From Hyphomicrobiales bacterium (GTDB lineage: Bacteria > Pseudomonadota > Alphaproteobacteria > Rhizobiales > Rhizobiaceae), in the NCBI GenBank assembly GCA_900469625.1, contig UBXV01000014.1:241316-305315 (forward strand): 64,000 nt of DNA, given 5' to 3'. The notes beneath the pieces were generated by a model. That model saw only the letters and a program-made list of their open reading frames with translations, was not told where the DNA came from and ran no database searches. Position 1 is the stretch's first letter. Every line of letters begins with the position of its first letter. Below, piece after piece: positions 42,174 through 58,065 of the stretch. Position numbers and translations under genes: made by a program.

Positions 42174-42213
42174 GCCCCCAGTGCCCGCCTATGGGATGAT
42201 CACTGCTTTTCTC

Positions 42214-42321
42214 CTCATTCCGGCCCTGTGCGGGAATCCGGCGATCTGACGTCCGTCAGATCAAGAGCCTTTCAGCCAAGGACTTGGCTGCCTGGATTCC
42301 TGTGACAAGCACAGGAATGAG
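42214..42321 (+). repeat. Mosaic palindromic element, copy B
   Basis: The element starts 41 bp after the oxidase stop codon. The palindromes are well kept: GATCTGACGTCCGTCAGATC (perfect, 42242-42261), CCAAGGACTTGG and ATTCCTGTG..CACAGGAAT. Close to the end of the oxidase gene, it may also act as its terminator. Confidence 0.78.
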
Positions 42322-42630
42322 GTCGATTGTGGCTATCACTGAGCCATTGCGGTTCTCGGCAGCCCTCCGAAGCAGGTCTTGTGCACGCAACACGGACGAC
42401 CGACGAGCGGCGATCCGCATCGCAAGGTGTCGACAGGGGTTAATGACAGCCGCCCGCAGATCACCCGGCGCCAGTCTTGAATGTTGAATTTTCGACGTGT
42501 AGCTTCGTCTGCGGAAGCCTCTCCAAACCTGCTGCCGGGTTGAAGGGCCGCTGACCTATCACCCGACGATGATGTTCACCAACGTCGAAGCGTAATCGGC
42601 AGACTTCGGCCAAGAGCATCGGATCGTCAT

Positions 42631-42993
42631 ATGCTGAACCCGCAGCTTAGGTTCTCGTCTGCCAACATTGCTACCCTGAAGAAATCTCTCCGAGATCATT
42701 ACCCTCAGATCAAATCATCGCACCTGGACGAGGCGATCGCCTCATCCATTGGCTTCAAGTCATACGCAGCGATGCGGCCAGCGCTCCTTCAAGTCGGCAG
42801 CCACGCGCGGTTGATCGTCGTGACCGATCACATGTTGCTTCTGCTTCGACTGGAAGAACTGGGATACCGGGACATCGACGCGGGGCACCTGCGCCGCCTC
42901 ATGTGGGATATTAATTTTCCGGATCGCGAGTACGATAATCAACTCGATGAAGCTGTCTCGAAACGCAGAAGGCCGACGGCCGCGAACTCGTGA
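42631..42993 (+). CDS. Hypothetical protein, 120 residues
   Basis: No firm family. The segment 'LRDHYPQIKSSHLDEAIASS' followed by 'IGFKSYAAMRP' resembles the 'SHSQALELVARALGFRDWNAL' motif of small domains found on mobile-element proteins, but the match is loose. The body is helical and soluble, with no signal peptide. Codon use is visibly less GC-rich than in the neighbours, suggesting transfer. The gene lies between two related copies of the oxidase 3' end and downstream flank (42042-42435 and 43043-43374). No strong ribosome site is seen. It could be a degenerate gene. Confidence 0.5.
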   Translation: MLNPQLRFSSANIATLKKSLRDHYPQIKSSHLDEAIASSIGFKSYAAMRPALLQVGSHARLIVVTDHMLLLLRLEELGYRDIDAGHLRRLMWDINFPDREYDNQLDEAVSKRRRPTAANS

Positions 42994-43042
42994 TAACGGC
43001 ACAGGCCGTCGGGGACTGTCTGTTCGCTGGCGCGCAGGTGGT

Positions 43043-43374
43043 CACGTCACCGGCCAGACCTCGGCAGTCCCGCTTGCCGAGACGCCTGTGCCGCCCCTGT
43101 CCCTTTATGCGATGGTCACAGCTTTTTTCCTGATTCCGGCCTTGTGCCGGAATCCAGCGATCTGACGTCCGTCAGATCGAAAAGCCTTTCAGCCAAGGAC
43201 TTGGCTGGCTCGATTCCTGTGACCGGCACAGGAATGAGGTTGATTGTGCGCTGAGCCTTCCGTTGATCCGCACAGCAAGTCGGTCTCGGCGCTCCCAGAC
43301 GGATCTCCGAAACACGTCTGATGTACGCATTGAGGACAGCCGACATGCGGCGATCCGCAATGCGGTGTGCTGCC
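43043..43374 (+). pseudogene. Duplicated 3' end of the PuuB-like oxidase gene
   Basis: Bases 43043-43090 repeat 42042-42089 with a few substitutions and encode 'HVTGQTSAVPLAETPV' against 'HVTGQTSAIPLAETPV' in the intact gene. The rest of the gene end is deleted. Similarity resumes in the downstream flank, including the mosaic repeat and about 130 bases beyond it (compare 42361-42435 with 43300-43370). This is a relic of a segmental duplication, bounded on the right by the chemoreceptor stop codon. Confidence 0.72.
43130..43238 (+). repeat. Mosaic palindromic element, copy C
   Basis: The same palindrome order as copies A and B: CATTCCGG-type arm, perfect GATCTGACGTCCGTCAGATC (43159-43178), CCAAGGACTTGG, then ATTCCTGTG..CACAGGAAT. 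It was carried along inside the duplicated block. Confidence 0.78.
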
Positions 43375-44895
43375 TCAGGCCACGCGGCGATAGCCGGGTG
43401 CGGTGCCGACGTGGACCTGGGTCGACGTCTGGAACGCCTTCAGCTTCAGTGCGATCTGTTCGGATTCCACCGTCAGCGCCTGGCTTGCGGCATTGGCCTC
43501 TTCGACCATGGCGGCGTTCTGCTGGGTGATCTGGTCCATCTGGCCGATGGCCGTGTTGACCGCCTGCAGGCCCTGCGCCTGTTCGGCGGTGCTGGCGCGG
43601 ATGTTGCCGAAGACCGAGCTGACCTCGACCACCTGCGAAACGATCTGCTGCAGCGACTGGGCAACCTGGTTGACCGAGTTGACGCCGTCATCGACCTGGC
43701 CGCGCGACTTGGCGATCAGGCCCTGGATGTCCTTGGCCGCATCGGCGCAGCGCTGGGCAAGCGCGCGCACTTCGGAGGCGACAACGGCAAAGCCCCTGCC
43801 AGCCTCGCCGGCACGCGCCGCCTCGATGCCGGCGTTGAGCGCCAGCAGATTGGTCTGGAAGGCGATTTCGTCGATGACGTCGACGATGCGGGCAATGCTT
43901 GCCGACGACGTCTGGATTTCCTGCATCACCTCGATCGCGTGGGTAACGATCTCGCCGCTCTGCTCGGCATTGGCGCGGGCGGCGATCACGGTCGAATTCG
44001 CCTGATCGGCGCCTTCGGCCGTCTGCTTGACCGTGCGCGTCACCTGCTCGACGGCTGCAGCCGTCTCCTCGAGGTTGGCCGCCTGGCGCTCCGTGCGCTT
44101 GGCGAGGTCGTCGGCAGCCGCCGCAATCTCCTTGGCGCTCAGATGGATCTGGCTGGCGCCGGCCTCGATGCCGCCGATCGCGCGGGCAAGCTCGCTGATC
44201 GCATGGTTGAAGTTCTCGCCGAGCTCCTCGTAGGCGACCGGAAGATCGGCCGCGATGCGCGCCGTCAGATCGCCGTCGGAAATCTTCTTCAGCGCCACGC
44301 CGAAGGTCTGGCTGACGAGCTTGCGCTCGGTTGCCAGCACCTCTTCCTGGACCGCGCGCTGCTTGGTCACGTCGGAGGCGTCCATATAGACCGAGATCGA
44401 CAGATCCATGTCGAGGAACATGCCCTTGACGAGGCTCGACAGCATTGCGCTCATCTCTTCGGCCGACGTTGCCTGGCGCGAGAACATGCCGCCCTTCGGC
44501 CAGTGCGCCTTGACGATCTCGGTGATCAGGTGCTCGGCGATCAGCGCGTAGCCGCCGATGTACCAGCGCGGCTCGAGCCCGATGCGGGCATGCACCTGGC
44601 CGATGGTGCGAACCTTCGCACCGTATTCGTCGTTGAAATTGGCGTCGGCGATATTGGCCCAGTGGCCAACCTGCGCGCCCTTGGCGCGGTTGATATGCGC
44701 ATCCGACGAGAAGAAGCGGTTGGTCTCCGGCGTCTTCTTGACCCGGGCGTAGAACTTGTCGAGCGCCGGCGCCAGCTCCTTTTCGAGGATCGGCTTCAGG
44801 GCCTTCAGGCTGGCCTTGGCGGCATCGTCGAGCGCCATGAAATTGAGACGACCGGCGATGTCTTCCTTGCCGGCAGCGACGTGTTCCGTTTTCAT
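43375..44895 (-). CDS. Globin-coupled methyl-accepting chemotaxis protein (HemAT-like)
   Basis: A soluble chemoreceptor of 506 residues. The N-terminal protoglobin domain (about 15-170) has the proximal-haem histidine in '[20 protein letters not shown]', the family signature. A HAMP-like connector ('[17 protein letters not shown]') follows, then the MCP signalling domain with its hairpin tip '[20 protein letters not shown]'. It has no membrane segment, so it senses oxygen or another gas in the cytoplasm and signals to CheA. ATG 44895 has an AGGGAAG site. It is not accompanied by che genes here. Confidence 0.92.
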
Positions 44896-45103
44896 GCGCG
44901 ACTTCCCTGCATGCTCTTGCTGGATCATGGAAGCTGGACGGGAGACCAAGGGGTCGGATCCGCAATCCTTGCCGCAATCATGGCGGCTATCTGCACCCCG
45001 GCAAACCGCCTTCAGGTACAATCACTTTCCATCGGCACTCGTATAAGCCCATGGTAAAGGAAGCCTTACGGGAAACAGCCATTTCGGGTAACCGCAACGC
45101 GTT

Positions 45104-45137
45104 TCAACCGGAATTGACGTCCGTCAATTCCGGTTGA
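45104..45137 (-). terminator. Long perfect palindrome after the ParA gene
   Basis: Arms CAACCGGAATTGACG (45105-45119) and CGTCAATTCCGGTTG (45122-45136) meet around two bases. It is 32 bp past the ParA stop and 200 bp before the chemoreceptor start, so it probably ends the ParA transcript. There is no T-run. Confidence 0.55.
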
Positions 45138-45168
45138 AGTCAATGTCTTGAATGTGTGTGCAGCCAGT

Positions 45169-45885
45169 TCAGGCCGCGCGCCGGGCCCAGGCTGGGGCGC
45201 GCGAAGCCCAGGAACGGCGGGCTTTTACAGGCATCAGCGCCTGCACTTCCCTGGCAAGGGCCAAGGCGTTTTCACGTGCCTTGTCGAGATTGCTGACCCG
45301 GGTTTCGTCCATGGACTGCAGCGTTCCGCCGCAGTCGAAGATCTCGCGATAGGCAACGCGTTCGACGATCGGCGTGTCGAGCACGCTGACACCGCGCGAG
45401 GCAAGCAGTGTCTTGATCGTCTGCAGTGCGCGCGTCGTCACCAGCGAATTGACGCGGGTGAGAACGACGGAATGATTGATGCGGACGCGAGCCCGCTCTT
45501 CGATCTGGCGGATGAGCTCGAGGATCTGCACGGCGCCGCGCGCATCCATGGCACAGCCCTGCACCGGTATCAGCACCTGGTCGGAAAGGGCGAGCGCCAG
45601 CGCGACGATCTGGTCCTTGGCGCCGGCGAGGTCGATGATGATGTAGTCGGCCTCGTCCTTCATCTCCCGGATATGACATTCGAGAGAGGCCGGCGTGATG
45701 TGGGAGATGACCGAGAGATTGGCGATCTGGCCGGAGTTTTCCGCCCAGCTGGTGATCCAACGCTGCGGATCGGCATCGAGGACGACAACGCGGTGTCCCT
45801 GCCTTGCCAGTTCCGTCGACAGGATCAGCGCCGCCGTCGTCTTGCCCGCGCCGCCCTTTGCATTGGCGAAAGTGATGACCGCCAT
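45169..45885 (-). CDS. Orphan ParA/MinD-family ATPase
   Basis: The protein has 238 residues. The deviant Walker A is KGGAGKTT (10-17), 'VVLDADPQRW' is the A' motif, and 'DYIIIDLAGAKDQ' is the Walker B strand. There is no ParB partner or repeated parS site nearby, so it is unlikely to segregate a plasmid. Relatives position cellular cargo such as chemoreceptors, and the next gene downstream encodes one, though this receptor is soluble. ATG 45885 has AGGA 6 bases upstream; the frame is open to 46044. Confidence 0.85.
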   Translation of the reverse strand: MAVITFANAKGGAGKTTAALILSTELARQGHRVVVLDADPQRWITSWAENSGQIANLSVISHITPASLECHIREMKDEADYIIIDLAGAKDQIVALALALSDQVLIPVQGCAMDARGAVQILELIRQIEERARVRINHSVVLTRVNSLVTTRALQTIKTLLASRGVSVLDTPIVERVAYREIFDCGGTLQSMDETRVSNLDKARENALALAREVQALMPVKARRSWASRAPAWARRAA

Positions 45886-46046
45886 CTTATTCCTCATTTT
45901 CTGCTCTGTTCCCGCGCCCTGCCCGACCGAAGCGTCGAACAAGCAGTGCCGCTTAATAGAACCTTTCAGAACATGGTTAACGAAACGGAAATTTTCGCGG
46001 GCGAAGATTAACACCCGCCCGCGCGGGGGCGCGGGCGGAAACACGA

Positions 46047-46078
46047 AAAGCCCGGAAAACCATGGGCTTCCGGGCTTT
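46047..46078 (-). terminator. Intrinsic terminator after the alcohol dehydrogenase gene
   Basis: AAAGCCCGG (46047-46055) pairs with CCGGGCTTT (46070-46078). On the minus strand this stem-loop follows the ADH stop by about 43 bp, and T-rich sequence follows the stem. A second GC-rich hairpin (CCGCCCGCGC/GCGGGCGG, 46016-46038) lies next to it. Confidence 0.7.
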
Positions 46079-46121
46079 GAGAAAAATTAACGCTCAGAGG
46101 CATCCGGCAAGCCACCGGGGC

Positions 46122-47267
46122 TCAGATGCACTCCCTGAACAGCGTCTTGGCCGCATCGAGCGTCAGTTCGACCGGGTTGCCGCCGGCGGTCGGGTCGACG
46201 ATCGCCATTTCCGACATTTCGTCGATGCGGTCGGTGCCGACGCCGAGTGCGGCAAGCTTGTCGGGAACGCCGAGTTCTTCGCGCAGCTTCAAGACATAGT
46301 CGTAGAAACCGTCGAAGCCGCCGGAGATGCCGAGATAGGCGGCAGCCCGCACGATCTTGTCCTCGATCGCCGAACGGTTGAAGCGCAGCACCGGCGGCAT
46401 CACCACGGCATTCGTCATGCCATGGTGGGTGTTGTAGATCGCGCCGACAGGATGCGAGAGCGAATGGATGGCGCCAAGACCCTTCTGGAAGGCCACGGCC
46501 CCCATGGCGGCAGCACTCATCATGTTGGCGCGGGCCTCGATATCGCCGCCGTCCTTGTAGGCGCGCGGCAGATATTCTTTCACCAGCCGCATGCCTTCGA
46601 GCGCGATGCCGGCAGACATCGGATGGTAGAATGGCGAAGAATAGGCTTCCAGGCAATGAGCAAAGGCGTCCATGCCGGTGCCGGCGGTGATCACCTTGGG
46701 CATGCCGACCGTCAGTTCCGGATCGCAGATGGTGACGGCGGGCAGGAACTTCGGATGGAAGATCACTTTCTTCACATGGCTTGCCGAATTGGTGATGACG
46801 CTGGCGCGGCCGACTTCCGAGCCGGTGCCGGCGGTCGTCGGCACCGCGACGATCGGCGCGATGCCCTCGACGCTGGCACGCGTCCACCAGTCGCCGACGT
46901 CCTCGAAGTCCCAGACGGGACGCGTCTGCCCGGCCATGAAGGCCACGCACTTGCCGAGGTCGAGGCCGGAGCCGCCGCCGAAGGCGACGACGCCGTCATG
47001 GCCGCCATCCTTGAAGGCCTTGACGCCGGCCGCCAGGTTCACATCGTTCGGGTTCGGATCGACATCGGCGAAGATCGCCCGGCCGAGGCCGTTGGCCTCG
47101 AGGATATCGAGCGCATTCTGCGTGATCGCCATCGGCGCCAGGCCACGGTCGGTGATCAGAAGCGGCTTCTTCATGCCGGCCGCCTTGCAATGGTCGGCAA
47201 GCTCCTTGATCCGGCCGGCGCCAAACTTGATGGCGGTCGGATAGCTCCAGTTCGCGGTGATCGTCAT
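46122..47267 (-). CDS. Iron-containing alcohol dehydrogenase
   Basis: The protein has 381 residues, of the Fe-ADH family. The NAD-binding 'GVVAFGGGSGLDLGKCVAF' and 'PTTAGTGSEVGRASVI' are present. Metal ligands are visible in 'TGMDAFAHCLEAY' (His), 'HSLSHPVGAIYNTHHG' (His) and the Asp in 'DPELT'. It would oxidise an alcohol to the aldehyde, which the overlapping upstream aldehyde dehydrogenase gene's product could take further. The ATG is in a 4-bp ATGA overlap with that gene. It is the last gene of the operon. Confidence 0.9.
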   Translation of the reverse strand: MTITANWSYPTAIKFGAGRIKELADHCKAAGMKKPLLITDRGLAPMAITQNALDILEANGLGRAIFADVDPNPNDVNLAAGVKAFKDGGHDGVVAFGGGSGLDLGKCVAFMAGQTRPVWDFEDVGDWWTRASVEGIAPIVAVPTTAGTGSEVGRASVITNSASHVKKVIFHPKFLPAVTICDPELTVGMPKVITAGTGMDAFAHCLEAYSSPFYHPMSAGIALEGMRLVKEYLPRAYKDGGDIEARANMMSAAAMGAVAFQKGLGAIHSLSHPVGAIYNTHHGMTNAVVMPPVLRFNRSAIEDKIVRAAAYLGISGGFDGFYDYVLKLREELGVPDKLAALGVGTDRIDEMSEMAIVDPTAGGNPVELTLDAAKTLFRECI

Positions 47268-48649
47268 GCTGTGACTTTCTTCAGATGGTAGGATTTCGGA
47301 CGGGTAAGGTTCTGGAAGCCGATGACCGAAAGCGAGCCGCCGCGGCCCGTTTCCTTGACACCGGTCCAGCAAAGCGCCGGATCGAGATAGTCGGCGCGGT
47401 TCATGAACACGGTGCCGGTCTCAAGGTCGCGGCCAAGGCGCGAGGCGCGGTCGGCGTCCTTGGTCCACAGCGACACCGTCAGGCCGTACTGGCAATCGTT
47501 CATCAGCTCGATCGCCTGGCTGTCGCTCTTCACCTTCATGATGCCGACTGCCGGGCCGAAGGTTTCCTCGCGCATGAAGGCCATGGAGTGGTCGACATCG
47601 ACCAGCACCTGCGGCGCGAGATAGGCGCCGCCGTCGTCCTGCGGGAACAGTTTCGGATCGACCAGCGCCTTGGCGCCCTTGGAGATTGCGTCGGCGATCT
47701 GCTCGCGCACCGTCGCGGCAAAGCGCTTGTGCGCCATCGGGCCGAGCGTCGTTTCCGGATCGAGCGGATTGCCGAGCTTGTAGTTCGAAACCCAGGCGAC
47801 CGACTTCTCGACGAAGGCGTCATAGAGCGTCTCGTGCACATAGATGCGCTCGATGCCGCAGCAGCACTGGCCGGAGTTGAAGGTGGCGCCATCCATCAGA
47901 GTGTCGACCGCAGCGTCAAGGTCGGCATCCTCCATGACATAGCCCGGATCCTTGCCGCCGAGTTCGAGGCCGAGACCGGTAAAGGTGCCGGCCGCCGCGC
48001 GCTCGATCGACCGGCCGCCCTCGACCGAACCGGTGAAGTTGATGAAGTCGAAGCTTTTCGCCGCAATCAGCGCCGCCGTCGTCTCGTGGTCGAGGAAGAC
48101 GTTCTGGAACACGTCGGCCGGAACGCCGGCCTCGACGAAGGCGCGCACCATGCGCTCGCCGACGAGGATCGTCTGGCTCGCATGCTTGATGATCACGGTG
48201 TTGCCGGCCATCAGCGCCGGCGCAACCGTGTTGATCGCGGTCATATAAGGGTAGTTCCACGGCGCGATGACGAAGACGACACCATGCGGCTCGCGCTCGA
48301 TGCGACGGCCGAAGCGGTCGCTGTCCTCGACGAGGATCGGCTTCAGCGCGTCGGCGGCAATCGAGGCGACATAGTTCGAACGCTCGTTGAAGCCCTTGAA
48401 CTCGCCGCCATAGCGCACCGGCCGGCCCATCTGCCACGCCAGCTCCGGCACGACCTCGTCGACCATCTCGTTGAGGCGGGCGACACCGGCCAGCACCAGA
48501 TTGACGCGCTCGTCCAGCGGACGGCGGGCCCAGGCCCTTTGCGCCTGGCGGGCGTGGGCAACCACCTGCTTTGCCATGTCCAGCGGCAGCGCCGGGCGTT
48601 CGGCATAAACCTCTCCGTTCACCGGAGAAATGCACTTGATCATGCTCAT
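47264..48649 (-). CDS. NAD(P)-dependent aldehyde dehydrogenase
   Basis: The protein has 461 residues. 'VIAPWNYPYMTAINTVAPAL' (Asn), 'GLGLELGGKDPGYVMEDADL' (Glu) and 'FNSGQCCCGIERIYV' (catalytic Cys) mark the active site, and 'EETFGPAVGIM' is also typical. The family oxidises aldehydes to acids; in gamma-glutamylation pathways this step makes a gamma-glutamyl amino acid. ATG 48649 has an AGGAAG site. It is coupled to the alcohol dehydrogenase gene by overlap and follows the glutamine-synthetase-like gene by 85 bp. Confidence 0.9.
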   Translation of the reverse strand: MSMIKCISPVNGEVYAERPALPLDMAKQVVAHARQAQRAWARRPLDERVNLVLAGVARLNEMVDEVVPELAWQMGRPVRYGGEFKGFNERSNYVASIAADALKPILVEDSDRFGRRIEREPHGVVFVIAPWNYPYMTAINTVAPALMAGNTVIIKHASQTILVGERMVRAFVEAGVPADVFQNVFLDHETTAALIAAKSFDFINFTGSVEGGRSIERAAAGTFTGLGLELGGKDPGYVMEDADLDAAVDTLMDGATFNSGQCCCGIERIYVHETLYDAFVEKSVAWVSNYKLGNPLDPETTLGPMAHKRFAATVREQIADAISKGAKALVDPKLFPQDDGGAYLAPQVLVDVDHSMAFMREETFGPAVGIMKVKSDSQAIELMNDCQYGLTVSLWTKDADRASRLGRDLETGTVFMNRADYLDPALCWTGVKETGRGGSLSVIGFQNLTRPKSYHLKKVTA

Positions 48650-48681
48650 GATCGTCTTCCTGCTTCCATTTCGAATGACGG

Positions 48682-48710
48682 GTGGCCGGCCCTGGTTTTG
48701 GACCGGCCAC
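48682..48710 (-). terminator. Intercistronic stem-loop (ligase to ALDH)
   Basis: GTGGCCGG (48682-48689) pairs with CCGGCCAC (48703-48710) in the gap between the ligase and aldehyde dehydrogenase genes. It has no T-run, so it may stabilise or partly attenuate the transcript. Confidence 0.45.
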
Positions 48711-48734
48711 TGAAAACGTGACTAACAGGCCGCC

Positions 48735-50099
48735 TCAGGCCCGTTCGAAACCGCGCGCCACTTCCCAGTCGGTGACGCGGCGGTCGTATTCTTCCTGTTC
48801 CCACTCGGCGGCACGCACATAGTGGTCGATGACGTCGTCGCCGAAGGCCGCGCGCAGCATCTTCGAGCTGGTCAGCGCTTCGGTCGCAGCGCGCAGGGTG
48901 CGCGGGATTTCGCGCACATTCTTGCCGCCATAGGCGTCGCCGACAAACGGCGCCTCCAGTTCCATCTTGCCTTCGATACCGGAAATGCCGGCCGCGAGCA
49001 AAGCCGCGAAAGCGAGATAGGGGTTGAGGTCGGAGCCGCCGACGCGGCACTCGATGCGGATCGCCTTGGTATCCTCGCCGCACAGGCGATAGCCGGCCGT
49101 GCGGTTGTCCTTGCTCCACACCGCCTTGGTCGGCGCAAACGTGCCGGCCATGAAGCGCTTGTAGGAGTTGATGTAGGGCGCGAGGAAGTAGGTGATCTCG
49201 CTGGCGTGGCTGAGGAGCCCGGCCACATAGTGCCGCATCTGCTCCGACATGCCGTGCTTGCCGTCCTTGTCGAAGAATTTCGGCGTCTTGCCGTCGGCGC
49301 TCCACAGCGACTGATGGATGTGCGAGGAGGAACCGGCAGCCTGATAGTTCCACTTGGCAAGGAATGTGATCGCCTTGCCACGCGACCAGGCGATTTCCTT
49401 GCAGCCGTTCTTGATGATCGCATGGCGGTCGGCCATCGTCAGCGCGTCGGCGTAGCGCACGTTGATCTCTTCCTGGCCCGCCGACGCTTCACCCTTGGAA
49501 TTCTCGACCGGAATGTCGGCGCCCTGCAGGCCGTTGCGGATCGCCCGCATCACGTCTTCTTCCTTGGTGGTCTGGAAGATGTGGTAATCCTCGTTGTAGC
49601 CGCTGACGAGCTGCAGGTCGCGGTAGCCGGACTGGCGGGCGTCGTCATAGGTCTGGTCGAACAGGAAGAATTCGAGCTCGCTCGCCATGAAGGCCTTGAG
49701 GCCCATCGCCTCCAGCCGCGCGACCTGTTTCTTCAGGATCGCGCGCGGCGAATGCGGCACTTCCTCGTGGGTGTGGTGGTCGAGCATGTCGCAGAGCACA
49801 AGCGCGGTGCCCTCGAGCCACGGAATACGACGCAGCGTCGAAAGGTCCGGCTTCATCGTATAGTCGCCGTAGCCCTTCTCCCAGCTCGTCGCCTTGTAGC
49901 CGGAGACCGTCTCCATCTCCATGTCGGTCGCCAGCAGGTAGTTGCAGCTATGCGTTTCCTGCCAGGCGCTGTCGACGAAATACTGCGCGTGGAAGCGCTT
50001 ACCCATCAGCCGGCCCTGCATGTCGACCTGGCAGGCGAGAACCGTATCGATGCGGCCGGCGGCAACATCCTCTTTCAATTGCTCAAACGAATAGCTCAT
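48735..50099 (-). CDS. Glutamine-synthetase-family ligase (gamma-glutamyl-amine type)
   Basis: The protein has 454 residues. GS motifs are visible: the Glu pair in 'FMASELEFFLFDQ', 'EASAGQEEINVRYADALTMA', the 'SSSHIHQSLW' binding loop (normally GSGMHxHxS) and 'RIECRVGGSDLNPYLAFAALL'. It lacks the adenylylation tyrosine segment of assimilatory GlnA and is closest in plan to PuuA/IpuC/GlnA4-type ligases, which join glutamate to amines. Context (permease, ADH, ALDH) supports a catabolic role. ATG 50099 is used; the frame's TTG at 50102 is less likely. Confidence 0.85.
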   Translation of the reverse strand: MSYSFEQLKEDVAAGRIDTVLACQVDMQGRLMGKRFHAQYFVDSAWQETHSCNYLLATDMEMETVSGYKATSWEKGYGDYTMKPDLSTLRRIPWLEGTALVLCDMLDHHTHEEVPHSPRAILKKQVARLEAMGLKAFMASELEFFLFDQTYDDARQSGYRDLQLVSGYNEDYHIFQTTKEEDVMRAIRNGLQGADIPVENSKGEASAGQEEINVRYADALTMADRHAIIKNGCKEIAWSRGKAITFLAKWNYQAAGSSSHIHQSLWSADGKTPKFFDKDGKHGMSEQMRHYVAGLLSHASEITYFLAPYINSYKRFMAGTFAPTKAVWSKDNRTAGYRLCGEDTKAIRIECRVGGSDLNPYLAFAALLAAGISGIEGKMELEAPFVGDAYGGKNVREIPRTLRAATEALTSSKMLRAAFGDDVIDHYVRAAEWEQEEYDRRVTDWEVARGFERA

Positions 50100-50144
50100 C
50101 AAAATTCATCCCATGTTTCGGCAAGCGGCCGTTCCCGTGGCCGC

Positions 50145-50180
50145 AAAAAGAAAGGCGGAAGCTGCAGATGCGCTCCCGCC
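50145..50180 (-). terminator. Terminator or attenuator between permease and ligase genes
   Basis: On the minus strand GGCGGGAGC (50180-50172) pairs with GCTTCCGCC (50162-50154), one G-U pair, and TTTCTTTTT follows. This has all parts of an intrinsic terminator, yet lies between genes of one apparent operon. It may lower expression of the downstream enzymes relative to the permease. Confidence 0.75.
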
Positions 50181-50194
50181 CATTTTATTGTTGC

Positions 50195-51742
50195 TTAGAC
50201 TTGGCCGACGGCCTTTTCGGCAGCGGCGATTTCGGCCTGGCGACGGGCGACTTCTTCGCCGATCGGCGGGCCGCGGAAGCGGCGGCTTTCAAGGCCGAAC
50301 CAGATGATCGCGGTCAGGACCAGGAAGCCGACGGTGATGTAGAGCGCCCAGTCGTTCGGCGGCTGGATGCCGAGGATGAAGATCAGCGCCATGGCGATGA
50401 TCGACAGCACCGCGAAGAGCTTGAACATGCCCTCGCCGAGGTTCCACGGACCCATCTTGTCCCACTTCGAGGTGCCCCAGGCGAAGAGACCGAGCGTGAT
50501 CGGGATCGCGAAGGAGAAGAACAGGAAGATGACCGTGCACGACACGACGATGGTGTAGACCGGCGTTTCGCCGATCGCGACCAGCGACGAGCCCCACACG
50601 AACAGCACGGCGAGGATCGAACCGGTCCAGATCGCCGCAACCGGCGTGCGATAGGTCGGGCTGACCTTGGCCAGAGCCTTGGATGCCGGCAGGCCGCCGT
50701 CACGCGAGAAGGCGAAGATCATGCGCGAGACCGAGGTCACGGTCGCCAGGCCGCACAGCCACTGGCTGACGAGGATGGCGAGGTAGAGCACGTCCTTGAT
50801 GACAGGGTGAACCTGCGCGTCCATCGCCCAGAAGAACACGTTCCAGCCCTGCTTGGCGGCCTCGTCCATGTTCGGCAGCATCAGCACGAAGGAGCAAAGC
50901 ATGATGTAGCCGAACAGCGCCGACCACAGCACCGACGAGACCATGCCGCGCGGCACGGATTCGGCGGCCTTGACGGTCTCTTCCGAAGTGTGCGCGGAGG
51001 CATCGTAGCCGGTGATGGTGTAGATCGGCAGAAGCAGGCCGAGCAGGAAGACCCAGGAGCCCGAGGTCGTCGGCCAGACGTTGCCGCCGGCTTCACCGGA
51101 ATAGTTGGAGAAGGTGAAGAGGCGCGCGATATCGTAGCTGTCGGCGGCAACCAGGCAGACGAGTGCAAGCAGGATCGACGTCGCGAAGATCAGGTAGCCC
51201 GAGAAGTCGGTGAGCTTGGCCGTCAGCCCGATGCCCATGTGGTTGACCAGCGCCTGCGCGCCGGTGATGACGGCCAGGAAGACGATCCGGGTCAGCGTCG
51301 TATCGGCAAGGCCGAAATACGGCGTGCCGAACGAGCCCATGAAGAAGTAGTAGGTGCCGACATTGATCGCACCGAGAACGGTGACGAGACCGAGCAGGTT
51401 GAACCAGGCGGTCAGCCAGCCGGTGAAGCGGTTGCCGAGGATCGAGCCCCAGTGATAAAGCCCGCCGGCGGTCGGATAGGCGGAGCTGATCTGCGCCATG
51501 GCGACGGCAAAGACGAGCGAGATGAAGCAGCCGAGCGGCCAGCCGATGCCGATTGCGGCCCCACCCGCGCCCGACGTTGCCTGGGCCAGCGAATTGATGC
51601 CGCCGGAGAGAATGCAGATGATCGAGAACGAGACCGCGAAGTTCGAGAACTGGCTCATGCGCCGCTCGAGCTCCTGGGCATAGCCCATCGAGTGCAGGAC
51701 CTGCATGTCCTGCTTTTTGTCGTGATCACTGTAGTCTGACAT
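50195..51742 (-). CDS. APC-superfamily amino-acid/amine permease
   Basis: A membrane protein of 515 residues with about 12 helices. The N-terminal 'ERRMSQFSNFAVSFSIICIL' and 'AQISSAYPTAGGLYHWGSIL' are the conserved APC motifs, with 'ITGYDASAHTSEETVKAAES' in the middle. This subfamily imports amino acids, GABA, polyamines or amino alcohols. It lies between a hydrolase gene and the glutamine-synthetase-like gene, so it probably imports their substrate. A terminator-like hairpin follows it. Confidence 0.87.
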   Translation of the reverse strand: MSDYSDHDKKQDMQVLHSMGYAQELERRMSQFSNFAVSFSIICILSGGINSLAQATSGAGGAAIGIGWPLGCFISLVFAVAMAQISSAYPTAGGLYHWGSILGNRFTGWLTAWFNLLGLVTVLGAINVGTYYFFMGSFGTPYFGLADTTLTRIVFLAVITGAQALVNHMGIGLTAKLTDFSGYLIFATSILLALVCLVAADSYDIARLFTFSNYSGEAGGNVWPTTSGSWVFLLGLLLPIYTITGYDASAHTSEETVKAAESVPRGMVSSVLWSALFGYIMLCSFVLMLPNMDEAAKQGWNVFFWAMDAQVHPVIKDVLYLAILVSQWLCGLATVTSVSRMIFAFSRDGGLPASKALAKVSPTYRTPVAAIWTGSILAVLFVWGSSLVAIGETPVYTIVVSCTVIFLFFSFAIPITLGLFAWGTSKWDKMGPWNLGEGMFKLFAVLSIIAMALIFILGIQPPNDWALYITVGFLVLTAIIWFGLESRRFRGPPIGEEVARRQAEIAAAEKAVGQV

Positions 51743-51853
51743 ATTTCTTCCCCTGATTTCTCCGACCCCGCCACCCCATTGCGGCAGGATCCCATCACTA
51801 CCCGCCCCGGCTGGCCGGAACAGGACCGCGGCTATGCCGCTCCCCAGGGTCTT

Positions 51854-52636
51854 TTATTGTGCTGAAAGTGCTGCCACGCCTTTGCTGAGCAGCCCTTCCA
51901 GATAATCGGCCATGACCCTCTGGCCGATCTCGTTTCGAATGAGATCGTTGCGGATCTCGATCATCACATTCGCCAATCCGTTGTGGACGCCGTACTCGAT
52001 CAGACTGTGCGTCACGCCGTCGGCCGGCCCGTAGGGCTCGTTGCGGCGGATGTCGTAGGCGACCTTGCCCCTGGTGGCGAAGGTCAGCATCTGGTCGGCG
52101 AGCCGGCTGTCGGCGTCGTGCAGGATGCCGACCTCCACGGAGCGCGGCTTGCCGAAATAGATGGGCGTGAACGAATGCATGGTGACGACCACGGGCGGGC
52201 GACCATTGACCTTGCGCTCGGTGACGAACCGGCTGATGGCGTCGTGGAACGGCAGGTAGATCTCGTCGACCCGCGCCTGTCGCTCATCCCCAGCCATGTC
52301 GCGATTTCCCGGAACCTCGTAGACTTCGCTGACGACAGGCATCGCGCCCTCCGCCTCCGGCGGACGGTTGCAGTCATAGGCAAGGCGCGAGAAGCGCTGA
52401 TAGATGAGAGCGGCATCAAGCTTGCGCGAGAGAAGTTCGGCCACCGCGAGTGCGCCCGGGTCCCAGGCGATGTGGCTTTCGAGCGCCTGCTGCGAAAGGC
52501 CAAGCGAGCCGAGGCGCTCCGGTACCCGGCGCGAGGCATGTTCGCACACGAGAACGATATCGCCTTTTGCGGCGGCGTTCTCGATTGCAACCGGTTCGCC
52601 ATCTGTATCGGTCAAAAGTCGCGTCAACACCGGCAT
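51854..52636 (-). CDS. N-formylglutamate-amidohydrolase-family enzyme
   Basis: The protein has 260 residues. Family motifs are 'IVLVCEHASRRVPERLG' (His), 'RLAYDCNRPPEAEG', 'VVTMHSFTPIYFGKPR' (His) and 'VMIEIRNDLIRNEIGQ'. Known members hydrolyse N-formylglutamate to glutamate and formate, the last step of one histidine pathway, but no hut genes are present here. At the head of this operon it may instead release glutamate from a glutamyl conjugate; this is inference. It is transcribed divergently from the RpiR regulator. Confidence 0.83.
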   Translation of the reverse strand: MPVLTRLLTDTDGEPVAIENAAAKGDIVLVCEHASRRVPERLGSLGLSQQALESHIAWDPGALAVAELLSRKLDAALIYQRFSRLAYDCNRPPEAEGAMPVVSEVYEVPGNRDMAGDERQARVDEIYLPFHDAISRFVTERKVNGRPPVVVTMHSFTPIYFGKPRSVEVGILHDADSRLADQMLTFATRGKVAYDIRRNEPYGPADGVTHSLIEYGVHNGLANVMIEIRNDLIRNEIGQRVMADYLEGLLSKGVAALSAQ

Positions 52637-52802
52637 CCCCTCTTGCCCCGTTAGACGTTCGTTAATGAAAAGATTTGTTCAGAGATCGACCAGTGTCAAT
52701 CGAAATCTGAAACGATCTCTTCAAAATTGCGATTGACTCCAATTGTGACAGCGATGTTTAATCTGTCACAAACTGGCGTTAGACCAGTTCAGGGGAGACA
52801 GC

Positions 52803-53681
52803 GTGACCAGCAAGGCGACATCCACGACGGTGTCGGATGTGATCAATGCCCACTTCGCCGCGCTGACCCGCGCGGAGCGACAGTTGGCAGAGACGCTTCT
52901 CGACAATTATCCGGTCTCCGGGCTCGGTTCGATCACCACCGTCGCCGAGAATGCCGGCGTGTCGACGCCAACCGTCGCACGCATGGTGCAAAAGCTTGGT
53001 TTTAAAGGCTTTCCCGATTTCCAGTCGCGGCTGCACCAGGAGCTGGAAGCGACGATTTCCAACCCGATCACCAAGCATGACCGCTGGGCGGCGAGCGCGC
53101 CGGGCACCCATACGCTCAACCGCTTTGCCGATGCCGCCATGAACAACATGCGCGAGACACTGTCGCAGATCGAGCCGCAGGAATTCGACGAGGCGGTGGC
53201 GCTCATCGCCGATCGCAAGCGCAACGTCTATCTGCTTGGCGGCCGCATCACCCGCGCCGTTGCCGATTATCTCTTCACCCACCTGCAGGTGATCCGTCCC
53301 GGCGTCACCGAGATCGCCTCCAATGCCAGCGCCTGGCCGCATTACGTGCTCGACATGCGCCATGGCGACGTACTGATTCTCTTCGACATCCGCCGCTACG
53401 AACAGGAAATGGAGACGCTGGCGAAGTCGGCGCGCGAACGCGGCGTCGAGATCGTGCTCTTCACCGATCGCTGGAGCTCGCCGGTGGCGAAATCCGCCTC
53501 AAAGGTCTTCCGCTCGCAGATCGAGATCCCCTCCGCCTGGGACAGCTCGGTGGTGATCCTGTTTCTGGTCGAAGCGTTGATCGAAGCCGTTCAGAGCTTC
53601 AACTGGGACGCGACCCGCGACCGGATGAAGACGCTCGAGGGGCTGTTCGATTCGACCCGCATCTTTCGCAAACCGGTTTAG
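52803..53681 (+). CDS. MurR/RpiR-family transcriptional regulator
   Basis: The protein has 292 residues: an N-terminal RpiR helix-turn-helix (about 1-80, 'GSITTVAENAGVSTPTVARM') and a C-terminal SIS domain (about 125-260, 'NVYLLGGRITRAVADYLFTH'). SIS domains bind phosphosugars or related ligands. The start is GTG 52803 with AGGGGAGA upstream. It is divergent from the amidohydrolase operon and upstream of an ABC importer, so it may control either or both. The 166-bp divergent gap has short inverted pieces such as TGTGACAG/CTGTCACA (52743-52773). Confidence 0.87.
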   Translation: MTSKATSTTVSDVINAHFAALTRAERQLAETLLDNYPVSGLGSITTVAENAGVSTPTVARMVQKLGFKGFPDFQSRLHQELEATISNPITKHDRWAASAPGTHTLNRFADAAMNNMRETLSQIEPQEFDEAVALIADRKRNVYLLGGRITRAVADYLFTHLQVIRPGVTEIASNASAWPHYVLDMRHGDVLILFDIRRYEQEMETLAKSARERGVEIVLFTDRWSSPVAKSASKVFRSQIEIPSAWDSSVVILFLVEALIEAVQSFNWDATRDRMKTLEGLFDSTRIFRKPV

Positions 53682-53868
53682 GAGGGACAGCCGGAACGTT
53701 CACGAAGTTTTATGCACATGTGTTTCAGTGAAGGCGCCGTGTCGGAAAAAGATTTGTTCTTCCAACGACATGCGCGGCGCGATCAGACGGATCGCTGTCA
53801 CACAAGTTTCATAGCATCTCTTTAACAGCATCGCCGAAATTGACTGAAAACCCATAAGGAGAACACCA

Positions 53869-54975
53869 GTGATTTCAACGACTCAACGACTGCTCTCGCT
53901 TTCCACCGCCATTCTCTTGGCAACGACGGCCATTGCCGCTGCCGAGCCGAGCGCAGAGCTCATCGAAGCTGCCAAGAAGGAAGGCATGCTGACCACGATC
54001 GCCCTGCCCCACGACTGGTGCGGCTATGGCGACGTGATCGCCGCCTTCAAGGCAAAGTATCCGGAAATCCAGGTCAACGAACTGAACCCCGACGCCGGCT
54101 CTGCCGACGAAGTCGAGGCAGTCAAGGCCAACAAGGACAACAAGGGCCCGCAGGCTCCTGACGTCATCGACGTCGGCCTCGCCTTCGGCCCGCAGATGAA
54201 GGCCGAAGGCCTGCTGCAGCCCTACAAGGTCTCGACCTGGGACGAAATTCCCGACAGCGTCAAGGACGCCGAAGGCTACTGGTACGGCGACTACTACGGC
54301 GTCATGTCGTTCCTGGTGAACAAGGACCTCGTCAAGGAAGCGCCGAAGGACTGGGCCGACCTCCTGAAGCCGGAATATGCCGGTCAGGTCGCTCTTGCCG
54401 GTGACCCGCGCGCTTCCAACCAGGCGATCCTCGGCGTTCTCGCCGCTGGTCTTGCCAAGGGCGCAAAGTCGGGCAAGGAAGCCGGCGAAGCCGGTCTCGG
54501 CTACTTCGCCGAGCTCAACAAGGCCGGCAACTTCGTTCCTGTCATCGGCAAGTCCGGCACGCTCGCCCAGGGCTCGACCCCGATCATCGTTGCCTGGGAC
54601 TACAACGCACTCGGTTGGGCAAAGACGCTCAACGGCAACCCGCCGACTGAAGTCGTCGTTCCGGCCAGCGGCGTTCTCGCCGGCGTCTACGTTCAGGGCA
54701 TCTCGGCCTATGCGCCGCACCCGAACGCAGCAAAGCTGTGGATGGAGCACCTCTATTCGGACGAAGGTCAGCTCGGCTGGCTCAAGGGCTTCTGCCACCC
54801 GACCCGCTTCAACGCCATGGTCAAGGCCGGCAAGGTTCCGCAGGAACTGATCGACGCCCTGCCGCCGGCAGCAGCCTATGAGAAGGCCTACTTCCCGACG
54901 CTCGAGGAAGTCGACGCCAACAAGGCAGCCGTCACCGGCGCATGGGATTCCGTCGTCGGCGCCAACGTTCAGTAA
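53869..54975 (+). CDS. ABC transporter substrate-binding protein
   Basis: The protein has 368 residues. The signal peptide ends near 'AIAAAEP' and the mature protein is periplasmic. 'LIEAAKKEGMLTTIALPHDW' and 'PDVIDVGLAFGPQMKAEGLL' resemble the iron/polyamine/2-aminoethylphosphonate group of class-1 binding proteins. The ligand is unknown. Start GTG 53869 has AAGGAG 8 bases upstream. Upstream, CTGTCAC-acaa-GTTTCAT at 53795-53812 is a partial Pho-box match. It heads the importer genes to 57925. Confidence 0.88.
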   Translation: MISTTQRLLSLSTAILLATTAIAAAEPSAELIEAAKKEGMLTTIALPHDWCGYGDVIAAFKAKYPEIQVNELNPDAGSADEVEAVKANKDNKGPQAPDVIDVGLAFGPQMKAEGLLQPYKVSTWDEIPDSVKDAEGYWYGDYYGVMSFLVNKDLVKEAPKDWADLLKPEYAGQVALAGDPRASNQAILGVLAAGLAKGAKSGKEAGEAGLGYFAELNKAGNFVPVIGKSGTLAQGSTPIIVAWDYNALGWAKTLNGNPPTEVVVPASGVLAGVYVQGISAYAPHPNAAKLWMEHLYSDEGQLGWLKGFCHPTRFNAMVKAGKVPQELIDALPPAAAYEKAYFPTLEEVDANKAAVTGAWDSVVGANVQ

Positions 54976-54992
54976 GCGTTTCCACAACCATG

Positions 54993-55022
54993 CTGCCCCG
55001 GCCGGTTTTCCGGCCGGGGCAG
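54993..55022 (+). terminator. Strong intercistronic stem-loop
   Basis: A 13-bp perfect stem, CTGCCCCGGCCGG (54993-55005) with CCGGCCGGGGCAG (55010-55022), has a TTTT loop and starts 17 bp after the binding-protein stop. In ABC operons such hairpins keep the binding-protein mRNA more abundant than that of the membrane genes. Confidence 0.75.
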
Positions 55023-55036
55023 ATGCGATATCGCTC

Positions 55037-55140
55037 GCATCTTTCCTCGTCCTCCTCGACATGAGGACGAAAACATGCAGCAATTCAATGTGCTACAGCG
55101 ACCTTTTCGCGTCGGGATGACGCGCAAAGGTCGCTGTAGA
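55037..55140 (-). repeat. RIME-like element, copy 1
   Basis: Two palindromes make up about 104 bp. The first has GTCCTC/GAGGAC and ends in AAAACATGCAG (55037-55080). The second has arms CTACAGCGACC and GGTCGCTGTAG (55093-55139). The copy at 58108-58209 has the same parts in the opposite orientation. The structure matches my memory of Rhizobium-specific intergenic mosaic elements. It sits between the binding-protein and permease genes. Confidence 0.72.
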
Positions 55141-55190
55141 AAATTCAATGAACGACCGCGTCCGTAGCGCGGCATCTCGGGGCGAACGGA

Positions 55191-56072
55191 ATGTCATCTG
55201 CTCACACCGGCGCCAGGCCACCTGCGCGCCGCCTTCCGCTTCACTGGCTCGGCGTCCTGCCCTTTGCGGCGTTCGTGTTGCTGTTTCTCATTCTGCCGAC
55301 GATGAAGATCGTGGTCGGCGCCTTCCAGACGCCTGAGGGCGGCTTCACCTTCGACAACATCATCGGCCTGTTCACGCCCTCGATCCTCTCGGCCTACTGG
55401 ATCTCCATCAAGATCAGCATCGCTTCGGCGCTTCTCGGCTGCCTGATCGGCTTTGCGATTGCGTCCGCCGTCGTCTTCGGCGGATTGCCGAAATGGATCC
55501 GCGGGCCGCTGCTGACCTTTTCCGGCGTCGCCTCGAACTTCGCCGGCGTGCCGCTCGCCTTCGCCTTTCTGGCGACGCTCGGCCCCGTCGGCATCCTGAC
55601 CGTCTTCCTGCGCTCCAACTTCGGCCTCGACCTGAGGCTGCTCGGCTTCAACCTCCTGTCCTTCTGGGGGCTGACCGTCACCTATCTGTTCTTCCAGATC
55701 CCGCTGATGATCCTGATCATCACCCCGGCGCTCGACGGCTTGAAGCGCGAATGGCGCGAGGCGGCCGAAATTCTCGGCGCCACCGGCCTGCAATACTGGC
55801 GCATGGTCGCCTTTCCGATCCTTCTGCCCTCGCTGCTCGGCACGCTGGCGCTCCTGTTCGCCAATGCCTTCGGCGCGGTTGCGACCGCGATCGCGCTCAC
55901 CGGCTCGTCGCTGTCGATCGTGCCGATCCTGCTCTTCGCCCAGATCCGCGGCGACGTTCTCGGCAATCCGCATCTCGGCTACGCGCTCGCCTTCGGCATG
56001 ATCGTCGTGACCGGCATCGCCAACGCGATCTACATCTGGCTTCGCGCCCGCAGCGAGAGGTGGCTGAAATGA
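55191..56072 (+). CDS. ABC transporter permease, first subunit
   Basis: An inner-membrane protein of 293 residues with about six helices. The ATPase-docking EAA loop is 'WREAAEILGATGLQYWRMVAFPILLPSL'-like, at about residues 185-210. The family is the polyamine/iron-type (PotB/CysTW) permeases. It follows the hairpin and RIME element, with only a weak ribosome site at ATG 55191, and overlaps the second permease gene by 4 bp. Confidence 0.9.
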   Translation: MSSAHTGARPPARRLPLHWLGVLPFAAFVLLFLILPTMKIVVGAFQTPEGGFTFDNIIGLFTPSILSAYWISIKISIASALLGCLIGFAIASAVVFGGLPKWIRGPLLTFSGVASNFAGVPLAFAFLATLGPVGILTVFLRSNFGLDLRLLGFNLLSFWGLTVTYLFFQIPLMILIITPALDGLKREWREAAEILGATGLQYWRMVAFPILLPSLLGTLALLFANAFGAVATAIALTGSSLSIVPILLFAQIRGDVLGNPHLGYALAFGMIVVTGIANAIYIWLRARSERWLK

Positions 56073-56851
56073 AGAAGATCTGGGCCTGGGGGGCCCTCGT
56101 TTTCGGCCTCCTCTATTTCACCCTGCCGCTGATCGGCATGACGAACTTCTCCTTGAAGATGCGTCGCGGCGAGTATTCCTTCGACGCCTATGGCAAGGTC
56201 TTCAGCGATCCGCGCTTTCAGGAGACCTTCACCTATTCGATCATGCAGGCGCTGTTCACGATCCTGTTCGGCGTTCTGCTGGTGGTGCCCACGGCCTACT
56301 GGGTTCGCCTGAAGCTGCCGCGGCTGCGGCCCTACATCGAGTTCATCACGCTTCTGCCGCTCGTCATCCCGGCGATCGTCATCGTTTTCGGCTACATCCG
56401 TCTCTACAACACCTCGAGCTGGCTGCCTTTGACCGGATCGATCTTCGGCACCAACGTGCTTTTGATGTTCGGCTACGCCATCCTCGCCCTGCCCTACATG
56501 TACCGGGCGGTGGATACCGGGCTCCGCACGATCGACATCGCGACGCTCACCGAAGCCGCCCAGAGCCTCGGGGCAGGCTGGGCGACCATTCTCGGGCGGA
56601 TCATTCTGCCGAACGTCCTGGTCGCGGTGCTCTCCGGTGCCTTCCTGACATTTGCCATCGTCATCGGCGAATTCACCATGGCAGCACTTCTGAACCGGCC
56701 GGCCTTCGGTCCGTACATGCAGCTTCTCGGCGCCAACCGCGCCTATGAGCCAGCCGCTCTCGCCGTCATCGCGTTCGGCATCACCTGGGGCTGCCTCGGC
56801 CTCATCCAGCTCGTCTCGCGCTTTCAAAAAAGCGCGCCTCCCAAGGCCTGA
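56069..56851 (+). CDS. ABC transporter permease, second subunit
   Basis: The protein has 260 residues and six helices, with the EAA loop in 'LTEAAQSLGAGWATILGRII'. It pairs with the first permease to form the pore. The start is fixed by the ATGA overlap at 56069-56072, although the frame is open to 55493. The ATPase gene follows after 12 bp. Confidence 0.9.
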   Translation: MKKIWAWGALVFGLLYFTLPLIGMTNFSLKMRRGEYSFDAYGKVFSDPRFQETFTYSIMQALFTILFGVLLVVPTAYWVRLKLPRLRPYIEFITLLPLVIPAIVIVFGYIRLYNTSSWLPLTGSIFGTNVLLMFGYAILALPYMYRAVDTGLRTIDIATLTEAAQSLGAGWATILGRIILPNVLVAVLSGAFLTFAIVIGEFTMAALLNRPAFGPYMQLLGANRAYEPAALAVIAFGITWGCLGLIQLVSRFQKSAPPKA

Positions 56852-56863
56852 GGATCGGTCCAT

Positions 56864-57925
56864 ATGAGTTTCCTGACACTGACCAACATCCAGAAATCCT
56901 TCGGCCCCGTGCAGGTCGTGCATGGCTTCGACATGTCGATCGAGAAGGGCGAATTCGTCTCGTTCCTCGGCCCGTCGGGCTGCGGCAAGACGACCGTCCT
57001 GCGCATGATCGCCGGCTTCGAGATGCCGTCCAGCGGATCCATCGTCATCAACGGCAAGGACCAGGGCACGCTGAAGCCGAACCAGCGCAACATCGGCATG
57101 GTATTCCAGGCCTATGCGCTGTTCCCGAACATGAACGTCGCCGACAACGTCGCCTTCGGTCTGAAGGTCGCCGGCGCGCCGAAGGCGGAGATCGACGCGC
57201 GCGTCAAGCAGATGCTCAGCCTGATCAAGCTCGAGCACCTGGCCGATCGTTTTCCCTATCAGCTCTCCGGCGGCCAGCAGCAGCGCGTGGCGCTTGCCCG
57301 CGCGCTTGCCGCCAAGCCGCAGGTGCTGTTGCTCGACGAGCCGCTGTCGGCCCTCGACGCCAAGATCCGCGTGTCGCTGCGCGAGGAAATCCGCCAGATC
57401 CAGCAGCAGCTCGGCATCACCACCGTCTTCGTCACCCATGACCAGGAAGAGGCGCTGTCGATCTCGGACCGCATCGTCGTGATGAATTCGGGCCGCGCCG
57501 ACCAGATCGGCACGCCCTTCGAGATCTACAACACGCCCGCCACCCGCTTCGTCGCCTCCTTCGTCGGCACGCTCAACATCATCGAGGCCAAGGTGGCAGA
57601 TCCGGCCACGGGCACCGTTGCCATCGGCGACCAGAAGGTATCGCTGAAGGAGCCGATTTCCGGCATGAAGGGCGGCGACCCCATTTCGCTGGCGCTGCGC
57701 CCGGAGGCGGGCTCGATCGCCGACAGCGCCAAGGGTGATACCGCGCTCACCGGCGAGGTGGTTTCGACCAGCTTCCTCGGCTCGGTCATCCGTACCAAAC
57801 TGCGCATTGGCGGCGACGTCATCTCCTTCGACATGTTCAACGATCCCGGCCTGACGCCGCCCGCCTACGGCGACAACGTCACGCTGCGCTTCGCCGCCAA
57901 GGATCTGCTCGTCATTCGCGAGTAA
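56864..57925 (+). CDS. ABC transporter ATP-binding protein
   Basis: The protein has 353 residues. The nucleotide-binding domain has Walker A GPSGCGKTT (about 37-45), signature LSGGQQQRVALARAL (about 133-147) and Walker B 'VLLLDEPLSALDAK'. A C-terminal TOBE domain (about 275-350) follows. It powers the import system made with the two permeases and the binding protein. Family resemblance is to PotA/FbpC-type ATPases, which again suggests polyamines, ferric ion or phosphonates as ligand. Confidence 0.92.
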   Translation: MSFLTLTNIQKSFGPVQVVHGFDMSIEKGEFVSFLGPSGCGKTTVLRMIAGFEMPSSGSIVINGKDQGTLKPNQRNIGMVFQAYALFPNMNVADNVAFGLKVAGAPKAEIDARVKQMLSLIKLEHLADRFPYQLSGGQQQRVALARALAAKPQVLLLDEPLSALDAKIRVSLREEIRQIQQQLGITTVFVTHDQEEALSISDRIVVMNSGRADQIGTPFEIYNTPATRFVASFVGTLNIIEAKVADPATGTVAIGDQKVSLKEPISGMKGGDPISLALRPEAGSIADSAKGDTALTGEVVSTSFLGSVIRTKLRIGGDVISFDMFNDPGLTPPAYGDNVTLRFAAKDLLVIRE

Positions 57926-58021
57926 GATCGGACGTGCAAAGACCGAGCGCTGCCGGAACCATTTCGCCCTGCAGCGCCCGGTCTTGGAAAAATCTGTCGT
58001 AATTTCCAGGATTTTCGTCGC

Positions 58022-58045: not shown

Positions 58046-58065
58046 CGTTCTATATAGTCGGCCCT

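Follow-up and report, generated by a model that had tools for sequence, protein, structure and literature searches.

Described Ethanolamine Systems and the Rhizobiaceae Locus

The ethanolamine pathway of Chromohalobacter salexigens and Agrobacterium tumefaciens C58 was reportedly described by Vetting and co-workers in 2015. Here we report on an operon of five minus-strand genes in a 64,000 nt stretch (hereafter the window) of the genome of a Hyphomicrobiales bacterium (6.54 Mb searched, 74 contigs), which is in all likelihood a substrate-induced ethanolamine catabolic operon using a gamma-glutamylation route. The closest described locus is that of Phaeobacter sp. MED193, which encodes an RpiR regulator, a gamma-glutamylglycine amidohydrolase, the TRAP transporter EtoVWX, an ethanolamine gamma-glutamylase, a gamma-glutamyl aldehyde dehydrogenase and a gamma-glutamylethanolamide dehydrogenase (passages of Westermann et al., 2023; PMC10132767). 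According to the same passages, five of these proteins increase on phosphorylethanolamine (their Table 2), purified EtoX binds ethanolamine with a Kd of 7.9 uM, and the MED193 genes are closely related to genes shown to function in the use of ethanolamine by C. salexigens and A. tumefaciens C58. The relevant part of a review gives the same steps for Streptomyces coelicolor and calls them proposed for C. salexigens (PMC9397018).

The window carries the gene classes of MED193 in the same order: RpiR regulator, hydrolase of the N-formylglutamate amidohydrolase type (FGase), transporter, glutamine synthetase-like (GS-like) ligase, aldehyde dehydrogenase (ALDH) and iron-type alcohol dehydrogenase (Fe-ADH; Table 1). 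This comparison with the published passages was made by gene classes, with plasmid pMaD4 of Marinovum algicola standing in for the sequences. The plasmid has the order RpiR-FGase-TRAP-GS-ALDH-ADH, and its FGase, ALDH and ADH are 48, 70, and 69% identical to those of the window. The difference lies in transport: MED193 has EtoVWX, whereas the window operon lacks this TRAP transporter and has an APC-superfamily permease in its slot, and a four-gene ABC transporter (53869-57925, plus strand) is found beyond the divergent RpiR gene. An earlier note on this DNA had listed the five genes, among them the FGase-type hydrolase and an ADH gene overlapping the ALDH gene. Open frames and family profiles bore out the families and coordinates, and the ADH and ALDH genes share 4 bases, ATGA, in which the ADH start lies over the ALDH stop. 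The RpiR regulator and the ABC transporter had been overlooked in that inventory.

In the proposed pathway, the APC permease would import ethanolamine, and the GS-like ligase would attach it, with ATP, to the gamma-carboxyl of glutamate. The Fe-ADH would convert the gamma-glutamylethanolamide to the aldehyde, from which the ALDH would yield gamma-glutamylglycine. Cleavage by the FGase-family metallohydrolase would release glycine and glutamate, and the glutamate would therefore be recycled. The operon is expected to be substrate-induced, with the divergent RpiR protein acting via the shared promoter. A route of import, gamma-glutamylation, oxidation to aldehyde and acid, and release of glycine and glutamate had been put forward in the earlier note. 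It matches the route published for MED193, with the same enzyme classes and order (passages of PMC10132767), so that its chemistry was correct in its main lines and had already been published. The pathway is known, and it is mainly the importer gene that looks different.

The earlier note had also named the Streptomyces GlnA4 route and the Pseudomonas isopropylamine (Ipu) pathway as parallels. The parallel holds for gamma-glutamylation, and the true match is Phaeobacter MED193. GlnA4 of S. coelicolor forms gamma-glutamylethanolamide, after which two oxidations and a hydrolysis are predicted, and some Streptomyces clusters hold a permease gene that improved growth on ethanolamine (passages of Krysenko et al., 2019; PMC6529630). 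The GlnA4 cluster is set apart by its description, which in the figure legend names a short-chain dehydrogenase and a glutamine amidotransferase and in the discussion the formylglutamate amidohydrolase family. The Ipu pathway shares a permease and a GS-like ligase making gamma-glutamyl amides, but the analogy is looser than had been claimed: a P450 system is required, and the postulated hydrolysis frees L-alaninol before the alcohol is oxidized (passages of PMC6776027). An Ipu reading of the locus was rejected, as no monooxygenase match was found among nine scanned proteins of 46122-57925 (the second ABC permease lay outside the scan), in agreement with the earlier statement that the operon holds no oxygenase genes. 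A Eut-type route was rejected as well: EutB had no matches in the genome, with a model that among 14 control genomes detects E. coli only.

The Ligase Groups with 5dm3

The ligase scored 671 bits against PDB entry 5dm3 and 667 bits against 11zs. We take the source organism of 5dm3 to be C. salexigens. In an alignment with GlnA, PuuA and the paralogues of the genome, the ligase was 66% identical to 5dm3, 27% to E. coli GlnA and 26% to E. coli PuuA. In GlnA, D50 belongs to the ammonium site and E327 to the flap, and further residues are metal or ATP ligands. In the window ligase, S and F stand in the D50 and E327 columns, and in 5dm3 G and F; the column of N264 holds A, and that of Y179 a gap. 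The E327 column is F in all nine clade members. The D50 column varies within the clade and is therefore the less telling of the two, and one or both residues are also missing from PuuA and from some paralogues. The metal and ATP ligand columns E129, E131, E212, E220, H269 and E357 as well as R339, R344, R359 and H271 are retained, so named after residue roles taken in part from passages of PMC6529630.

A phylogeny of the ligase against GlnA and PuuA had been suggested in the earlier note. In the tree, the window ligase shares a group with 5dm3, the protein of the Marinovum plasmid and six further relatives, at a fork (94/100) that is unstarred and flagged as open, its bootstrap being unsettled. 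The 5dm3-type clade stands apart from GlnA, and from PuuA together with three genome paralogues. Alignment and tree exclude L003 and L092 (the window gene itself), and in three rows the N-terminal end was cut back. From its orthology to 5dm3, the ligase is very probably an ethanolamine gamma-glutamylase of the ETAGA type.

The generic family names (glutamine synthetase, N-formylglutamate amidohydrolase) would also fit a chance neighborhood of a genuine glutamine synthetase and a gene for N-formylglutamate (histidine) degradation. We regard this as extremely improbable: GlnA E327 and D50 are not retained in the ligase, the genome encodes a bona fide GlnA (676 bits, cut-off 429) and a GlnII-like protein (385 bits against a cut-off of 500) at other places, and the gene order is conserved across many genera. 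With S and F in the D50 and E327 columns, the reading as a plain glutamine synthetase was dropped.

The Puu cluster of E. coli likewise has a GS-like ligase, an ALDH and a permease, which would suit a Puu-like polyamine operon for putrescine or a related diamine. Puu, however, uses the oxidase PuuB and the hydrolase PuuD, and the alcohol dehydrogenase of the window has no place there. The absence of PuuB and PuuD from the operon, pointed out in the earlier note, was confirmed with E. coli queries: in the window region 40000-60000, PuuD gave no match and PuuB a sole match (29%) at 40875-42173, 4 kb from the operon and on the other strand. Among 157 stretches from relatives there was no PuuD-like match, and PuuB-like matches in 27 lay outside the operon. 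In addition to its 26% identity to PuuA, the ligase scored 206 bits against the GGputSyn model, far under the cut-off of 650, and the three other paralogues in the genome are nearer to PuuA. A polyamine operon is thus very improbable, and we retain the assignment to ethanolamine.

As a separate observation, the best NCBIfam match of the FAD oxidoreductase at 40875-42173 is L-pipecolate oxidase AmaA (452 bits, cut-off 600); the gene is present on 24 of 80 stretches from close relatives.

Hydrolase and Dehydrogenases

The FGase-type hydrolase scored 324 bits against PDB entry 2odf (Atu2144) and had no match in the NCBIfam scan. The locus resembles both described organisms, C. salexigens through its ligase and A. 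tumefaciens C58 through its hydrolase. Residue conservation was determined in those relatives from 170 loci that exceeded 85% coverage and an identity of 38% for FGase or 50% for the other enzymes. At least 98.5% of the filtered relatives retain FGase H33, H55, D59, H154 and E227 (121 relatives), ALDH C263, C264 and E229 (135) and Fe-ADH D200, H204, H268 and H282 (145); which of these bind metal or catalyze is presumed from family knowledge. By synteny, the three proteins are assigned as putative gamma-glutamylglycine amidohydrolase (GGAH), gamma-glutamyl aminoacetaldehyde dehydrogenase (GAADDH) and gamma-glutamylethanolamide dehydrogenase (GETADH), respectively.

Conservation of the Operon and Exchange of Its Transporter

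Close relatives were taken as the best 80 of at least 594 confirmed ligase relatives; they are close Rhizobiaceae, so that the counts are not independent. On their contigs we found the GS-like ligase (80), ALDH (80), ADH (79), FGase (78) and RpiR (77), and because the genes co-occur in this way, the five-gene grouping goes beyond chance. The four closest ligase relatives among the matches listed are from Sinorhizobium and Ensifer (97-98% identity), so that the window organism very likely belongs to one of these genera. Two wider samples were also read. In the family sample (61 genomes, ligase in 42), 40 of the 44 loci lying outside the window were read. FGase was present at 36 of 40 loci and RpiR at 33 of these 36. 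The class sample comprised 289 genomes, with the ligase in 38 including the window's own, and 37 loci were read.

The slot between FGase and ligase varies in content. At the 78 close-relative loci with FGase on the contig, it holds an APC permease (65), an EtoX-type TRAP transporter (9), an Eat-type permease (3) or nothing (1). At the 36 family-sample loci with FGase, the counts are TRAP 24, Eat 3, APC 3 and empty 6, and at nine such class-sample loci TRAP 8 and Eat 1. One of the nine TRAP binding proteins of the close relatives, that of L044, was compared with PDB and scored 539 bits against 4uab; the remaining eight share 65-95% identity with that of L044. We take 4uab to be the C. salexigens ethanolamine-binding protein Csal_0678. 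Csal_0678 is named in passages of PMC10132767. The three Eat-type permeases scored 364-374 bits against TIGR00908 (ethanolamine permease), just below the cut-off of 382. In the 12 relatives with a TRAP or Eat slot, identity to the window is 85-91% for the ligase, 83-93% for ALDH, 78-94% for ADH and 55-76% for FGase. A change of substrate along with the transporter is unlikely, since the ligase is so similar in these relatives. The transporter swapping points to ethanolamine over alaninol or putrescine.

The earlier note had left the substrate between ethanolamine and alaninol. Ethanolamine is favored and alaninol disfavored, because the slot holds an EtoX-type TRAP or Eat-type transporter in 12 of 78 close relatives. 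The main substrate could be another small amino alcohol (L-alaninol, 1-amino-2-propanol or 3-aminopropanol), with ethanolamine secondary and the chemistry unchanged. This would agree with a window permease that is neither Eat-like nor TRAP, with a ligase pocket that is unreadable from the sequence alone, and with the lack of a nearby FGase at 28 of 37 class-sample ligase relatives. The 78-94% identity of ligase and dehydrogenases to those of the 12 relatives speaks against it, and we consider this alternative quite unlikely.

Several points weigh against ethanolamine catabolism as the function of the locus. We infer the substrate, each catalytic step and the regulation in the window organism from orthology to the published system, and the specificity of the FGase for gamma-glutamylglycine is deduced from synteny and from induction in Phaeobacter. 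The loss of D50 is uneven: the Marinovum ligase, from a complete operon, has D there, at a column where the alignment is uncertain. The APC permease is no more than a distant relative of Eat (34 bits against the Eat-type permease of L065). In the class sample, FGase was near the ligase at only 9 of 37 loci, and by gene set there were 8 full loci, 11 with GS, ALDH and ADH, 9 with GS and ADH and 9 with GS alone, counts that may miss divergent genes and that include some stretches cut off by the end of a contig. The ligase family therefore does not always come with the complete pathway, and its substrate could differ between members.

Two side observations concern gene sets and spacing. The nine class loci (sample L115-L151) with ligase and ADH and no recognized ALDH, and the nine with the ligase alone, hint at other substrates or at scattered pathway genes. 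In 18 of the 80 close relatives, more than 800 bases separate the ligase match from the ALDH match. Two of these were examined: L047 has a 161-aa helix-turn-helix protein (10404-10889), a possible additional regulator, and L061 has no open reading frame of at least 150 aa in the gap.

For ethanolamine uptake in the window organism, the most economical view is of a slot given over to ethanolamine import and filled in this genome by the APC permease; judged by its position, this permease is a probable ethanolamine importer. It scored 201 bits against TIGR00907, far under the cut-off of 598, and 197 bits against an APC permease from a Streptomyces plasmid, where its gene neighbors a GS-like one. 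No close EtoX was found in the genome, the best relative being 27% identical. Because close relatives exchange the transporter, the locus is classed with the Eto/ETAGA operons by its enzymes. The APC version of the pathway may already be described for C. salexigens or A. tumefaciens.

Table 1. Features of the putative ethanolamine operon and its flank (window coordinates; aa, amino acids).
Feature	Position	Strand	Details
FGase-like hydrolase	51854-52636	-	260 aa; PF05013 143 bits
APC-superfamily permease	50195-51742	-	515 aa; PF13520 169 bits
GS-like ligase	48735-50102	-	455 aa; PF00120 338 bits
Aldehyde dehydrogenase (ALDH)	47264-48649	-	461 aa; PF00171 396 bits
Iron-type alcohol dehydrogenase (Fe-ADH)	46122-47267	-	381 aa; PF00465 160 bits and PF25137 136 bits; start taken at ATG 47267, longest open frame begins further upstream
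RpiR-family regulator (HTH_6 and SIS)	52803-53681	+	PF01418, PF01380; divergent from operon
Candidate palindromic operator, TGAA-N8-TTCA type	52707-52724		Shared RpiR/FGase promoter region
ABC transporter solute-binding protein (SBP_bac_6)	53869-54975	+	PF13343; on 78/80 close-relative contigs
ABC transporter permease	55191-56072	+	PF00528 25.3 bits, just under 26.4 cut-off; on 78/80 close-relative contigs
Second ABC transporter permease	56069-56851	+	Part of longer open reading frame, internal ATG chosen as start; assigned without family-library scan; on 78/80 close-relative contigs
ABC transporter ATPase	56864-57925	+	PF00005 and TOBE_2; PhnT2 419 bits, cut-off 458; on 77/80 close-relative contigs

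The RpiR Regulator and a Candidate Operator

The RpiR gene next to the hydrolase gene encodes a protein 53% identical to the regulator at the equivalent place on the Marinovum plasmid. An RpiR gene also flanks the Phaeobacter operon (passages of PMC10132767). A TGAA-N8-TTCA palindrome matrix scored above 10 in 105 of 120 RpiR/FGase promoter regions and in 2.2% of shuffles, a recurrence that is partly circular because these very regions served to train the matrix; the palindrome is a candidate RpiR operator only. Upstream of the ABC binding-protein gene, the matrix exceeded 10 in 7 of 78 close relatives, 1 of 17 family-sample loci and 1 of 13 loci apart from the ligase. At a laxer score of 8 the counts were 32 of 78 (2.6% of shuffles), 1 of 17 and 3 of 13, respectively, and the window's own gene scored 4.5. 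One 13-base word is found in identical form at 52668 and at 53747, a weak signal as 8 of 100 shuffles gave at least two matches when up to two mismatches were allowed. Promoter and terminator scans of the locus stayed at chance level.

The Adjacent ABC Transporter

In the family sample, the binding protein of this transporter was found near the ligase in two places, left of RpiR at 6 of 40 loci and right of ADH at 11 of 40; none of the 37 class-sample stretches gave a match to it. A match to the binding protein at E 1e-80 or better was present in 34 genomes of the family, the window's own counted: it lay within 8 kb of the ligase (threshold E 1e-140) in 22, with the ligase elsewhere in 3, and 9 had no ligase. 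At 13 stretches the binding protein lies apart from the ligase. Eat was near in two of these, with EutBC in one of the two, and an ALDH (62%) was near in one other. Beyond the ABC genes, no neighbor family was found at more than 3 of these 13 loci (open reading frames of at least 110 aa within 6 kb). The ABC transporter is associated with the operon, and its role in the pathway is uncertain. Tentatively, with slightly less than even confidence, the APC permease may add one more type to the ethanolamine importers, and the ABC transporter may take up ethanolamine, or a compound that bears it, as a second system; rhizobia would then have at least three interchangeable importers on one pathway.

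A different ABC transporter, of the PotD type, directly follows the ethanolamine genes on Marinovum plasmid pMaD4 (L088, 12046-15963). The binding protein of this transporter has relatives (66-78%) close to the ligase in L168, L133 and L126.

More Distant Ligase Loci

Two plasmids carry more distant ligase relatives. On Paenarthrobacter ureafaciens plasmid pA (L091, 719-11529), typed as conjugative, a 37% identical ligase lies in an Ipu-like amine cluster with an APC permease, an ALDH, an SDR, a gamma-glutamyl-GABA hydrolase family protein, a P450, a ferredoxin and an FAD oxidoreductase. On a Streptomyces mirabilis plasmid (L090, 4289-10013), an APC permease and a GS-like ligase (39%) lie by methyltransferase-, DapF- and D-Ala-D-Ala-ligase-like genes, as read from open reading frames without a family search. 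This is perhaps a natural-product cluster using glutamylation; the open reading frames show no ethanolamine cluster, and the ligase was rejected as a member of one.

Implications for Rhizobia

We take S. meliloti SMc01594 to be an orthologue. The passages found on SMc01594 and SMc01593 do not mention ethanolamine, and our literature search found no rhizobial paper connecting the operon with this compound. With the present reading, five generically named genes in many rhizobia would gain a function, the conversion of ethanolamine, a common membrane-lipid head group, to glycine with recycling of glutamate and without the ammonia-lyase route. The value of the finding lies in annotation rather than discovery, and the swapping of transporters on this pathway offers a small, testable evolutionary story.

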